Positions 32,638 through 64,000 of a DNA stretch of 64,000 nt are shown here, one piece after another. Source of the stretch: Woeseiaceae bacterium (GTDB lineage Bacteria; Pseudomonadota; Gammaproteobacteria; Steroidobacterales; Woeseiaceae); contig JASJBE010000006.1 of the NCBI GenBank assembly GCA_030066655.1, positions 1 to 64,000 of the forward strand. The letters run 5' to 3'. Made by a program: the position numbers and the translations under genes. Within the stretch, counting starts at the first letter, position 1. Every line of letters begins with the position of its first letter. The notes beneath the pieces are model-generated. The model was not told the origin of the DNA and did not search any database. It saw only the letters and a list, made by a program, of their open reading frames with translations.

Positions 32638-34551
32638 CTACTCCCGTTCCACCAGGCTGTCTATCGCAGCCGGCTGCGACGACAGGTCATTCCAAAGCAG
32701 CGCATCGTTCCAGAGCAGGCCATCATTCCATAGAAGGCCATCGTTCCAGAGGAGCCCGTCGTTCCACAGCAAACCGTCATTCCAGAGCAGACCGTCGTTC
32801 CAGAGCAGCCCGTTTTTAAAGAGCAGCCGTTTGCCGACTGCGATATAGGTTCCGTCCCATCGCAGCTCGTTGTAATCATCATCTTCGTCCGCTTGCTTAC
32901 CATCCGGCGTCGAGACATAAAAAACGCCGTCGTCATCCATGTTGGCCGGTCCCTGGTAGTGTTGCTGACCAGTGAGGTCCAGGTTGATGTCGAGACCCCG
33001 GTTAGCACAGCCGGTGAGGTCGTTATTCATGACCGCATCGTAGATATTGATACGTCCCGCACCCTGCTGGAATACGCTGTAGGCCAGTTCCTTCGTGTTC
33101 GCTTTCGTAAGGACATCCGCCGAGCTCATCAGCTGACACTTGACGTCGTCGGGCGACAGCCACGGCTTGGCTTCCAGCAATAGCGCGGCCGCGCCCGTGA
33201 CTACGGCAGCAGCCTGCGACGTGCCTGACACCTCGTACAGTCGATCGCCGACCCTCCGGTGAGGTCTCTTTCTGGCGACCTTATGGCTGGCATCGTCCAT
33301 GACGCCGACGATGTGGCCGCCCGGTGCGACTAGTTCCGGTTTTATGAATGCCTCGACCGTTGGCCCAGCGGCGGAGAATGACGCGATGCGGTCGTCATTC
33401 CATTTTTGAGGCGTGTGGTTGTCCGTGATGGCCCCGACAGTGATGATGTATGGCACATTGCCCGGGACCCCGATGGTCATCGGAGCGGGCCCGGTGTTGC
33501 CTGCTGACGAGACAACGACAATGCCGGATTGCCAGACCGCCATGACCGCCTGGTTGACCGGATCGTCCCAATAATAGGACTGAGGCGGCGCACTGAACGA
33601 CAGGTTAACGATTCGGATATTGAACTTGTCCTTCGCGCGGAGCAGAAAGTCCAGCCCCCGGATGACATCTGAATATGAACCGACACCGTCGTGGTTGAAT
33701 GCTTTGATACTGACGAGATCGACATTAGGCGCGATGCCCAGTACCTCGAGGTTTTCGCTGTCGAGCCCACGGTCGTTGTGTTCGCCACCGCTTGTTGCTG
33801 AGCCAGCGATGATGCTCGCCAAGTGAGTTCCGTGGCCGTTCCAGTCTGCCGCAGGACTCCGGGTTGTGCGCTGTCGAACAGGTGCCCGCGTCGCGGTCGC
33901 CTGAGAGTAGCGTTTCCGCCTGAGTTCGGTATCGGTAACTCGACCGCTCGACGCAATCTCACTGCTACTCGAGTCAACGTCCTTGCTGTCTAGTGGTTGG
34001 ATAGCGACGCGTGTGAGCGGCCTGCCCTGAACAAGCTCACTCGAATGATTCGTGTTAGTTCCGCGGTATGCGTTGATTTGGGCCAGTACACGTTCGCGCC
34101 CGTAAAGGTCCGTCGTGATACTGTCATCACCCAGCCAGAGACCCGTATCGAGTATCGCGACGGTAACTCCTGAGCCTGTGTAGCCTTGCCTGAGCAGTCG
34201 ATCGGCTCCTATCAGCCTGCCATGCGCATTGATCGACTGACCATTTCGTCCTGACGATTTCGAGCTATTGATGGCAGCCATGCCAATGCTGGCATCTTGG
34301 TAAATTCGAAGGTCACTCCGTGCCTCGAGACGCCCGAGTTGCCGTTTATCCAGGGCGGCGCTGACGGCCCGGATGATTGCGAGTTCGTGCGTGACCGCGG
34401 CTCCGACCGACGTAACGGCCTGCCGGGCCTCGTCGAGATTGCGTGCCTGGACGATGAATCTCTCGGTGTCAACCGATCGGTGAGCATTGAGTAGGAGAAG
34501 TGTTGTTACCAGGATTGAGAAAATTGCAAAACGACGGTAACTCAAGAGCAC
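32638..34551 (-). CDS. Exported subtilisin-family (S8) serine protease with LLWND-repeat tail
   Basis: A 637-residue secreted protease. Start is GTG 34551. A signal or anchor segment (about 9-21) precedes an I9-like propeptide (about 30-95). The catalytic triad is Asp135 ('VAILDTGLW'), His240 ('NGHGTHLAS') and Ser445 ('SGTSQAAAV'), with the oxyanion Asn near 352 ('AGNTGP'). It ends in about 55 residues with seven LLWND units. It sits upstream of a membrane-bound sigma-54 activator and is probably in its operon. Expected at the cell surface or outside the cell. Confidence 0.93.
   Translation of the reverse strand: MLLSYRRFAIFSILVTTLLLLNAHRSVDTERFIVQARNLDEARQAVTSVGAAVTHELAIIRAVSAALDKRQLGRLEARSDLRIYQDASIGMAAINSSKSSGRNGQSINAHGRLIGADRLLRQGYTGSGVTVAILDTGLWLGDDSITTDLYGRERVLAQINAYRGTNTNHSSELVQGRPLTRVAIQPLDSKDVDSSSSEIASSGRVTDTELRRKRYSQATATRAPVRQRTTRSPAADWNGHGTHLASIIAGSATSGGEHNDRGLDSENLEVLGIAPNVDLVSIKAFNHDGVGSYSDVIRGLDFLLRAKDKFNIRIVNLSFSAPPQSYYWDDPVNQAVMAVWQSGIVVVSSAGNTGPAPMTIGVPGNVPYIITVGAITDNHTPQKWNDDRIASFSAAGPTVEAFIKPELVAPGGHIVGVMDDASHKVARKRPHRRVGDRLYEVSGTSQAAAVVTGAAALLLEAKPWLSPDDVKCQLMSSADVLTKANTKELAYSVFQQGAGRINIYDAVMNNDLTGCANRGLDINLDLTGQQHYQGPANMDDDGVFYVSTPDGKQADEDDDYNELRWDGTYIAVGKRLLFKNGLLWNDGLLWNDGLLWNDGLLWNDGLLWNDGLLWNDALLWNDLSSQPAAIDSLVERE
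32687..32812 (-). repeat. Seven-copy 18-bp tandem repeat encoding GLLWND
   Basis: Seven consecutive 18-bp units near the 3' end of the S8 protease gene, each giving [G/A]-L-L-W-N-D. Third-base changes between units (for example CTG/CTC and GGC/GGT usage) leave the protein repeat unchanged except for one Gly to Ala change. Confidence 0.92.
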
Positions 34552-37288: not shown

Positions 37289-38050
37289 ATGAAGCGGCTG
37301 ATTATCATTGGAATCCTGTTATTGAGCGGGGTCGCTGCGATGGCCTATGAAGAACCCGAGTACGAGCTCCTGCGAGCATCAGACGAGTATGAAATCCGGC
37401 GCTACGCGCCTTACATCGTCGCGGAGGTCGATGTGTCCGGCAGTTTCCGCAGCGCCGGCAACAAGGCGTTCCGCATCCTGGCCGGCTATATCTTCGGTGA
37501 CAACCAGCCGCAGGCGAAGATGAACATGACGGTACCGGTAGAATCAAAAGCTATCGGAGAGAATGGAGCATCGATCGGACCGGTAGAATCAAAAGCTATC
37601 GGAGAGAATGGAGCATCGATCGGACCGGAAGAATCAAAAGCTATCGGAGAGAATGAAGCATCGACCGGAACCGTAGAGTCCGTCGATAAAGGTCAGAAGA
37701 TGAACATGACCGTGCCCGTAGAGTCGCGGGCTGCGGAGAACGGCGACGAGACCACATATACCTATGCCTTCGTCATGGAACGGGCCTACACGATGGAGAC
37801 GCTGCCGAAGCCGGACGACGAGCGTGTCCGGCTGGTTCTGCGGCCCGCAAAAGTCATGGCGGTTCGACCCTGGACCGGAAGCGCCAGGGAATCGAGGTAT
37901 GAGAAAGAGAAGGCCGCTTTGCTGGGGGCGCTAGAGTCGGATGCGGTAACAGTCGTCGGGACTCCGGCCTTCGCTCGCTTCAACGGTCCGTTTACCCCGT
38001 GGTTCATGAAGCGCAACGAGATTCACGTCGAGATCGAGTACGTCGAGTAA
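37289..38050 (+). CDS. SOUL-family heme-binding protein with internal tandem repeat
   Basis: A 253-residue exported protein: signal peptide (residues 1-19), then 'EPEYELLRASDEYEIRRYAPYIVAEVDV', the SOUL/HBP signature. The family's two 'MNMTVPVES' motifs appear at about residues 79 and 139. The spacer is expanded by three 15-residue copies of 'VESKAIGENGASIGP' (the third diverged). C-terminal 'FARFNGPFTPWFMKRNEIHVEI' is a typical end. SOUL proteins bind heme or tetrapyrroles. It is monocistronic. Confidence 0.9.
   Translation: MKRLIIIGILLLSGVAAMAYEEPEYELLRASDEYEIRRYAPYIVAEVDVSGSFRSAGNKAFRILAGYIFGDNQPQAKMNMTVPVESKAIGENGASIGPVESKAIGENGASIGPEESKAIGENEASTGTVESVDKGQKMNMTVPVESRAAENGDETTYTYAFVMERAYTMETLPKPDDERVRLVLRPAKVMAVRPWTGSARESRYEKEKAALLGALESDAVTVVGTPAFARFNGPFTPWFMKRNEIHVEIEYVE
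37536..37670 (+). repeat. Three-copy 45-bp tandem repeat inside the SOUL gene
   Basis: Three head-to-tail 45-bp units (37536-37580, 37581-37625, 37626-37670). The first two are identical; the third has several substitutions. The unit length keeps the reading frame. Confidence 0.93.
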
Positions 38051-61857: not shown

Positions 61858-63126
61858 ATGAATATTCCAGGTACGACCGCCGCCGCGCTTCCAACCATCA
61901 CCTACGCAGCATCCGAGCCGACTACGAAACCGCCGGCGCCGGTCAGCAGCGCAGAAACGCAGACCACGGCCGAAAAACCGCGTGAGCTCGGCTTGAAGGT
62001 GCTCCAGGCAGAAATACGCCAGGTCTTAAGCGCGCGTCTGAAATTCTCCTTCGGCACCAACGGCTACGAATCGGCGAAACTGTCGGCTGCTGCCGTCGCC
62101 GGTGAGTCACTGTCGGCGGCCGGCTGGCTGCTTCGAGAGGCGCCGCTCAAGGCGGCGGAGGAACTGAGCGAGCTTCGTGACGACATCGAAGATGCTGCCG
62201 AGGCAGCCCGGGAGCTAGTCCCAGATGACGACCTCGACGACGTTGAAGAGGCGCTTGGCCGAATTGACGATGGCTTCGATGGCATCGGAAAGGAGGCCGC
62301 GAGAAACACCGAGTCGTCGGCTTCCGTTCTGGCGGCAGAAGCGATGATCAAGCAGCGATCCGTGGTCAGGATTCGGACACAGGACGGCGACGTCGTCACG
62401 CTGAAATTCCGACAGCGAGAGTCATTCTCGGCTATGTCCAGCGCCGACGAATCCGGATCGGCCACCCAGCTCGAGATGAGCAGTCGCTCGCGCATGGACC
62501 TCCGGGTGCGCGGCGAACTGGACGATGGTGAGCTGCAGGCGATAAAAGCCGTCTTCGAGCGCGCACAGGAAATTGCCGGCAGCTTTTTTGGCGGCGATCT
62601 CGCGGAGGCGTTCAGTAAAGCCAGCGAACTTGAGTTCGATCGGTCAGAACTTGCGAAAGTAAAGATGAAGTTTCGTGAGCAGGAAGTGAGCCGCATCCAG
62701 TTCACGCAGACCGTGCCGTACCCAACACTGCAACCGGCCGTGCCCATCTCTCCGTCGGAGTCGCCGGAGGTCGTCGCGCCGGATAATGTCGGGGCGGCGC
62801 CAAACGAAGCGCCAGCAGCATTCGCTAATGATGAGAAGCCCGTTCTCGTCGCCGCGGACGCCAAACCTGCTGTCGCCGTTCCCGAATCAGAGGGGCAAGT
62901 CGCCGAGCAGCCCGGAGCGATCGAGCGTTTCGTCCTCGAAATTCGCAACTTCCTGCGCTCAACGACGCAAGGATTCGAGAAAACGGACGGGCAGCGCTAC
63001 TTCTACTCGGAGTCGTTCAAGCTCAGCCTGTTGAAATCGGTTTTCGAGGCGAGCGCGCCTGAACAGTCGGGCGATGAGAGCGACAGGGCCGTCGCGGTCG
63101 TCAACGCACTTAACGAGTCCGACTGA
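61858..63126 (+). CDS. Unrecognised 422-residue protein
   Basis: A soluble, acidic protein with no signal peptide or membrane segment. The N-terminal 40 residues are Pro/Thr/Ala-rich. Then come helical segments ('ELSELRDDIEDAAEAARELVP'), a beta-rich middle ('VVRIRTQDGDVVTLKFRQRE') and 'DDGELQAIKAVFERAQEIAGSFFGGDLAEAF' (about 225-255). A linker rich in Pro/Ala/Glu (about 285-345) precedes a final helical piece. I recognise no family. It diverges from the kinase-HDOD gene (128 bp). Confidence 0.7.
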   Translation: MNIPGTTAAALPTITYAASEPTTKPPAPVSSAETQTTAEKPRELGLKVLQAEIRQVLSARLKFSFGTNGYESAKLSAAAVAGESLSAAGWLLREAPLKAAEELSELRDDIEDAAEAARELVPDDDLDDVEEALGRIDDGFDGIGKEAARNTESSASVLAAEAMIKQRSVVRIRTQDGDVVTLKFRQRESFSAMSSADESGSATQLEMSSRSRMDLRVRGELDDGELQAIKAVFERAQEIAGSFFGGDLAEAFSKASELEFDRSELAKVKMKFREQEVSRIQFTQTVPYPTLQPAVPISPSESPEVVAPDNVGAAPNEAPAAFANDEKPVLVAADAKPAVAVPESEGQVAEQPGAIERFVLEIRNFLRSTTQGFEKTDGQRYFYSESFKLSLLKSVFEASAPEQSGDESDRAVAVVNALNESD

Positions 63127-63171
63127 AGGCAGGTAATTTACTGCCGGCGCGGCCGTGGCTGAATACGAGAC

Positions 63172-63507
63172 TATTCGTCCCGGAATACCAGCTTCGGGGC
63201 TGTATCGATGAGCAATGTCTACTCGTCTCTGAAGACCAGCTTCGGAGTTCTTTCGATGGAGCATGGCTATTCGTCTTGGAATACCAGCTTCGGGGTACTT
63301 TCAATGGAATGTCCCTATTCGTCCTTGAACACCAGCTTCGGGGCACTTTCGATGGAGTGTGGCTATTTGTCTTTGAACACCAGCTTCGGAGTCCTTTCGA
63401 TGGAGTGTGGCTATTCGTCTTTGAACACCAGCTTCGGAGTCCTTTCGATGGAACGTGGCTATTCGTCTTGGAACACCAGCTTCGGAGTACGGTCAACGAA
63501 GAATAAC
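63172..63507 (-). repeat. Seven-copy 48-bp tandem repeat at the 3' end of the GH17-like gene
   Basis: Seven contiguous 48-bp units: 63172, 63220, 63268, 63316, 63364, 63412 and 63460 (start positions). The last (63460-63507) is the final 16 codons of the glycoside hydrolase on the minus strand. In all seven, the minus-strand frame reads x-PKLVF-[QKR]-D-[EK] followed by TAG, with the frame kept (48 = 16 codons). Confidence 0.95.
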
Positions 63508-64000
63508 CCCCAGTGTTTTTCGGCGCCTTCCGCGTTGTCCGGATTGCCTTTCCACGGCTCGTCGAAGGCCTCGAAGAAAAAGACCGTCACATTCTCCTGC
63601 TCCGCCCAGGCTTTCAGCTCATTGTAGTGGCGGCGCTGGTTCTCCTCGTTCGCCTGCTCGCTGAATTCTGTCGCCGTCGTGGCCCAGCCGGCCTCGAGGA
63701 TGGCGATCGGCTTGCCCGGAATCGCCTCGCGTACACGTTCGATGTTGTCGATGGTGTAAGCCAGGGCTTCGTCAACGGTTTTGCCTTCCCATGCGGGATA
63801 GGTGTGCACACCGAGAAAGTCGACAACCTGCCCGAGCTCGTAGCCGTCGGTCGCCCACCAGTCGTAGTTGTCGGCCGTCGTGACGGGTACGTCGACCGCT
63901 GCTTGCACCTGCTTGATGTATTCGATGGCTGACTCGACGGTAACCATGTGGTCGTTCCATTCGACCAGGGCCTCGTTGCCGACGTTGATCGCCACGACGA
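63459..64000 (-). CDS. Glycoside hydrolase family 17-like protein, C-terminal part
   Basis: The gene runs off the right edge; only its last ~180 codons are present. 'AINVGNEALVEWND' holds the acid/base Glu of a TIM-barrel glycosidase (N-E), and 'PIAILEAGWATT' holds the nucleophile Glu. 'DFLGVHTYPAWEG' and 'FFFEAFDEPWKG' are typical of GH17 beta-1,3-glucanase-like enzymes. The end is 'FFVDRTPKLVFQDE' then TAG at 63461-63459. An ATG at 63995 is internal. The 3' end is the first unit of the 48-bp repeat array. Confidence 0.88.
   Translation of the reverse strand, partial: VVAINVGNEALVEWNDHMVTVESAIEYIKQVQAAVDVPVTTADNYDWWATDGYELGQVVDFLGVHTYPAWEGKTVDEALAYTIDNIERVREAIPGKPIAILEAGWATTATEFSEQANEENQRRHYNELKAWAEQENVTVFFFEAFDEPWKGNPDNAEGAEKHWGLFFVDRTPKLVFQDE

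Follow-up and report, generated by a model that had tools for sequence, protein, structure and literature searches.

The 3′ end of a GH17-like glycoside hydrolase gene is followed, on the minus strand of the window (the whole 64,000-nucleotide stretch of DNA analysed here), by displaced copies of itself, which with the gene's own end form seven contiguous 48-bp units at positions 63171-63506. We read this feature, with a probability of roughly 0.45, as a lineage-specific minisatellite spanning the stop codon, in which the gene ends of diverged alleles may have been lined up by recombination and which would at present serve no function itself. A neutral stop-spanning minisatellite is enough to explain the GH17 array taken alone; within the set of at least six such arrays in the genome, to which it belongs, it points to something less ordinary.

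Units 2-7 lie behind the stop codon of the GH17-like gene and keep its frame, and all seven units read P-K-L-V-F-[QKR]-D-[EK]-TAG in one common frame, which confirms the original observation of seven 48-bp units retaining PKLVF and an in-frame TAG, with its coordinates corrected by one base. Between any two units, 3 to 16 of the 48 positions are different, and the further claim that the array is not a fresh stutter is thereby borne out. TRF scores the array at 439 (6.7 copies x 48 bp, 84% match), the highest value in the window. When the gene's own unit is compared with the array units, codons 7-16 are far more alike than codons 1-6. The DNA encoding PKLVF is almost invariant, the third base of the Val codon being its sole variation, and the GH17 array alone therefore offers few silent changes in this segment. 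The array occupies the gap between two convergent genes, the GH17-like gene (PF00332, E 9e-7, barely over the cut-off; PF07745 barely passes too) and a gene of 422 aa. It has the form of a VNTR, with head-to-tail copies of a unit in the ~10-100-bp range, and specifically of a VNTR overlapping a stop codon, as unit 1 terminates in the gene's TAG. Because each unit spans a stop codon, the units behind the first leave the encoded protein unchanged.

Table 1. The GH17 array and its flanking genes (positions in the window), and the other gene-end arrays found in the genome (positions in the pieces of sequence named).
Feature	Location	Strand	Description
GH17-like glycoside hydrolase gene, 3′ part	63459..64000	-	Runs past window end; stop-to-stop frame ~346 aa
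Unit 1	63459..63506	-	Gene's own final 15 codons and TAG: LFFVDRTPKLVFQDE, stop
Unit 2	63411..63458	-	Displaced copy: PRSIERTPKLVFKDE, stop
Unit 3	63363..63410	-	Displaced copy: PHSIERTPKLVFKDK, stop
Unit 4	63315..63362	-	Displaced copy: PHSIESAPKLVFKDE, stop
Unit 5	63267..63314	-	Displaced copy: GHSIESTPKLVFQDE, stop
Unit 6	63219..63266	-	Displaced copy: PCSIERTPKLVFRDE, stop
Unit 7	63171..63218	-	Displaced copy, most diverged and most distant from the gene: TLLIDTAPKLVFRDE, stop
Convergent neighbour gene	61858..63126	+	422 aa, without Pfam match; conserved in sister
Beta-ketoacyl-ACP synthase gene end	L159:2178-2592 (G000:C22)		9 x 48 bp (NATLVLQKLD, stop), mostly silent differences
TonB_C-domain gene end	L227:17725-18253 (G000:C22)		~6 x 92-bp copies, frame changing
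NERD protein gene end	L153:14866-15150		41/42 bp period; at or near contig end
EtfA-type gene end	L165:15906-16012		51 bp period; runs off contig
VWA/TPR protein gene end			50 bp period
Response regulator gene end			47 bp period
LysR gene end	L145		40 bp period, weaker array

The window comes from the genome of a marine-sediment bacterium, assigned to the Woeseiaceae from the named relatives of the GH17-like gene. The unit core has seven matches at ≤3 mismatches in the 3.61-Mb genome, all of them within the GH17 array, so that it is not part of a dispersed family of the MIRU type. The suggestion that the copies were gathered from paralogous gene ends fails on the same search: no paralogue in the genome carries the PKLVF tail, and a paralogue origin of the units was rejected. 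A search of 72 further genomes of the genus gave no convincing match to the array unit (best E 0.007, 83% over 35 bases), and carriage by a virus was rejected since the core pattern gave no hit in the viral contigs searched. The closest relative, a sister-species MAG (JASJCQ010000006.1), has the same neighbours on both sides (89% for GH17, 80% in DNA on the convergent-gene side), and the GH17 gene has a dN of 0.028 and a dS of 0.63 between the two. In the sister, a single GH17 gene end (DRTPKLVFRNE, TAA) is followed by a gap of ~40 bp with no repeat, and then by the homologue of the 422-aa gene. The copy number at this gene end is thus seven units here against one in the sister species, as judged from one genome of each. 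Because the sister shares these neighbours but has only a single, clean end to the gene, the GH17 array belongs to the present lineage. One clean unit in related strains, with the copies here an assembly error, had been named beforehand as evidence against the selection idea; such a unit is indeed present in the sister, but it shows expansion in this lineage and not an error. In 57 other GH17 relatives, the 360 bp behind the gene contained no tandem array. DRTPK or a near variant is common to the tails of these relatives, which from there on differ in both sequence and length, and the last residues of the GH17 orthologs are therefore weakly constrained.

The genome was surveyed over 1.90 Mb (53% of 3.61 Mb), with genes taken from a simple codon-usage caller and arrays from TRF. 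Thirty-two TRF arrays have a score of at least 90, of which 14 are inside genes, nine span a stop codon, one spans a start codon, and eight do neither. For the 18 arrays outside genes, random placement predicts that 9.1 would span a stop (nine do) and that 10.0 would span a start (one does, with 0 of 2000 draws that low), and from these counts gene ends seem to tolerate tandem arrays and gene starts to be purged of them. A scan independent of TRF, requiring at least seven of the last ten residues and the stop in any frame within 700 bp, found a clear displaced tail copy behind six of 1576 genes, compared with 0.33 in a mismatched-pair control. The arrays listed in Table 1 each copy the end of their own gene, stop codon included, and the genes are mutually unrelated. 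The sister has only one unit at the synthase gene, a shorter version of ~3 units at the TonB gene, and a VWA/TPR array of equal length; no sister match was found across the response-regulator array. Three gene-end arrays are on a single 45-kb contig (G000:C22), which looks like clustering, and the positions of the EtfA-type and NERD arrays at or near contig ends suggest that such arrays may break assembly and be undercounted.

Several repeats of other kinds were seen. An array at a gene start, that of a heavy-metal P-type ATPase, has five 47-bp copies containing the start codon and SSC[YF]HCGLP (L159:7584-7800 in G000:C22, minus strand), and its outermost copy has silent changes, a Y/F difference, and ATG for GTG. 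Within genes, a subtilase (Peptidase_S8) has an in-frame 18-bp repeat encoding GLLWND near its C-terminus (window 32686-32828), with similar in-gene 18-bp arrays at L160 11152 and L232 5542, and a 253-aa gene, which we take to resemble SOUL heme-binding proteins, contains three near-identical in-frame 45-bp copies (window 37534-37677). At L169:4985-5211, 82-bp repeats with a hairpin-like core are located directly before a tRNA-like sequence.

The differences between displaced tails were pooled over six arrays with at least three units, in each of which the gene's own unit was omitted, a tree of the displaced tails was made, and changes were counted by parsimony; the LysR and EtfA arrays (short, or with too few units) and the frameshifted sixth TonB unit were left out. 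Among the 70 inferred changes 48 are silent, against 24.1 ± 3.7 expected when the type of base change is kept and its position shuffled (p 5e-5; 0 of 20,000 draws as high), these counts coming from units that were picked by similarity and are short (27-66 bp), with few changes per array. The result is much the same under a second null that uses the transition fraction (21.6 silent changes expected), and the pooled pN/pS among displaced units is 0.117. There is no excess in the two shifted frames, with 10 and 8 silent changes against 14.7 and 20.5 expected. By array, the excess has a p of 0.003 for the synthase, 0.001 for NERD, 0.006 for TonB, 0.016 for VWA/TPR, and 0.096 for the response regulator. 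The swaps include Ser TCA/AGC/TCC in the TonB array and Arg CGA/AGA in the NERD array, and the stop codons are kept in displaced units of several unrelated genes by way of TAA/TAG swaps. The coding signature originally claimed for the copies thus holds for the six arrays together, whereas the GH17 array is too short to carry it alone: six of its 12 events are silent (p 0.058 and 0.134 under the two nulls, not significant), which is only suggestive. We did not rely on the conservation of a 27-bp core relative to the spacer, for which p is 0.001-0.008 with the end units and 0.21 within units 2-6. Open frames run through the GH17 array on both strands, and the plus-strand frame with wobble positions in common has a conserved look. 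We rejected coding of the array in antisense or in a shifted frame, as the other two sense frames have no pooled excess; the TonB TCN/AGC swaps would be non-silent if the opposite strand were the coding one. Tandem repeats overlapping stop codons are known, and in a literature search of partial coverage we found no paper, and hence no earlier account, of displaced gene ends with a silent-change signature.

We then compared these values with simulations in which selection acts on the first unit only and units turn over by random duplication and deletion, by birth from the gene end, or by conversion between units. All three schemes give a pN/pS of 0.66-0.76 at any rate of turnover. The observed value of ~0.12 is far below this and closer to the dN/dS of the GH17 gene across species (0.028/0.63), and because of this difference it seems that the displaced tails were working gene ends for most of the time since they separated. 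The likeliest course of events, as we see it, is that the units acquired most of their differences from one another at a time when each served as the gene's working end in some cell lineage. Unequal recombination between strains with different putative alleles, most of them single-ended, would then have lined these ends up behind one gene, with local duplication and a slow decay of the far units to follow. Gathering of units from alleles of the same gene is the reading that we favour, as a possible one. TonB unit 5 seems to have been copied recently from unit 3, but it has one amino-acid change and has lost the stop. The spacers between units fit poorly with the import of whole units: the sister lacks them, and they have diverged less than the silent sites of the tails, above all in the TonB array (0.04 against 0.38).

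A simpler account is that slippage duplicated 48 bp around the stop codon once this lineage had separated from the sister, and that the resulting units have been drifting since. This would agree with the absence of the array from the sister, with a divergence between units that is lower than the silent divergence of the gene, with variable columns that in the GH17 array alone have no third-position bias (p 0.16-0.38), and with placement statistics that are consistent with simple tolerance at stop codons. The pooled silent result leaves it strained, since the six arrays are far from the pN/pS of ~0.7 simulated for such dynamics, and as an account of the feature we find it somewhat doubtful. We regard as unlikely the broader proposition that a systematic process in this lineage takes the diverged ends of many unrelated genes, still intact as coding sequence, and aligns them behind the stops of those genes, through allele recruitment or as spare ends, with the result that DNA which is not translated would evolve like translated DNA.

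A direct function, in which the units are kept as spare gene ends and tail and stop always stay intact whichever way gene and array recombine, would explain the mostly silent differences, the kept stops, and the Ser TCN/AGC and Arg CGN/AGA swaps in several unrelated genes. We consider it improbable. A pN/pS as low as that observed is not reached by random duplication and deletion, or by conversion, with a selected first unit; the final residues of the GH17 orthologs vary freely; and the far units decay, with the stop of synthase unit 8 lost and TonB unit 6 frameshifted. Two related suggestions had been made for the array. As a store of alternative C-termini it would have little to exchange, because the peptides of the displaced tails are almost identical, every unit giving PKLVF-[QKR]-D-[EK] where a cassette store of the Rhs/CDI type would hold different ones, and the tails of orthologs are variable. 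A tail extended by readthrough is unlikely, since arrays with periods of 41/42, 47, 50, and 92 bp behave alike; with periods of 41, 47, 50, and 92 bp successive units fall in different frames, which rules readthrough out as a general cause.

Insertion of prophage e14 at the 3′ end of icd in E. coli brings with it a silently altered copy of the tail, and arrays such as these could be the scars of lost integrative elements that each left a copy of this kind behind. Such scars would account for silently altered copies that span the stop in genes with no relation to one another, but no element separates the units, which are contiguous, as many integrases would be needed as there are unrelated genes, the spacers have no match to gene sequence upstream of the tail, and no spacer motif is common to the arrays after correction for multiple tests (ATCG, at p 0.003 uncorrected for 256 tests, was dropped). 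At the GH17 array itself the contiguous units are flanked only by the GH17 gene and the 422-aa gene, which has no Pfam match, and we think this origin quite improbable. It is less probable still that a short-read MAG assembly merged into one path the gene ends of strains that occur together. The assembly consists of 167 contigs and two arrays lie at the end of a contig or close to it, which leaves room for error in the copy numbers; however, the common spacers of 12-26 bp are shorter than the usual assembly words, such that joins would need real reads across units, and the sister MAG independently has the three-unit TonB array and the VWA/TPR array of equal length. Least probable by far is an RNA or termination element, with repeated hairpins forming a 3′ end common to the convergent genes, or the structural mRNA 3′ end proposed at the outset: there is one weak terminator-like site on the plus strand and a 7-bp plus-strand helix that pairs in 94% of cells, but whole-array folding of the two strands is no better than that of shuffled sequence (z +0.57 and -0.01) and the helix covariation is equalled by 68 of 500 shuffles, on which grounds RNA structure was rejected, and promoter-like and terminator-like sites in the array are at chance level, the latter not above shuffles.

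Repeats behind stop codons are usually treated as neutral typing markers. If it is true that displaced, untranslated gene ends carry a protein-level signature, they would be either a fossil record of allelic exchange in individual genes or selected spare parts. Among known systems, the MIRU-VNTRs of Mycobacterium tuberculosis are intergenic tandem units of roughly 40-100 bp that can overlap stop and start codons; they are a single dispersed sequence family, whereas each array here has its own sequence from its own gene. In Rhs and CDI toxins, displaced C-terminal cassettes accessible to recombination lie behind the gene and encode different C-terminal domains; displaced 3′ ends behind a gene are common to both, but the array here repeats one short tail. 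Prophage e14 and phage 21 at icd share with the present case a second gene-end copy with mostly silent differences, and differ in that the array consists of many short contiguous units without an element, and with no integrase site shown. It is not a CRISPR array, as the units are homologous to one another in both of their parts. The closest likeness in form is to VNTRs of Yersinia pestis, where tandem units also include the stop codon of the upstream gene (PMC3689786). Ten such loci overlap stop codons there and six overlap start codons, and copy number at the former is thought to alter coding little; the passages of that study dealing with these VNTRs do not discuss silent differences between units (PMC3689786). 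The Yersinia motifs are mostly 7-21 bp (PMC3689786), whereas the present units are longer and diverged, and differ mainly by silent changes.
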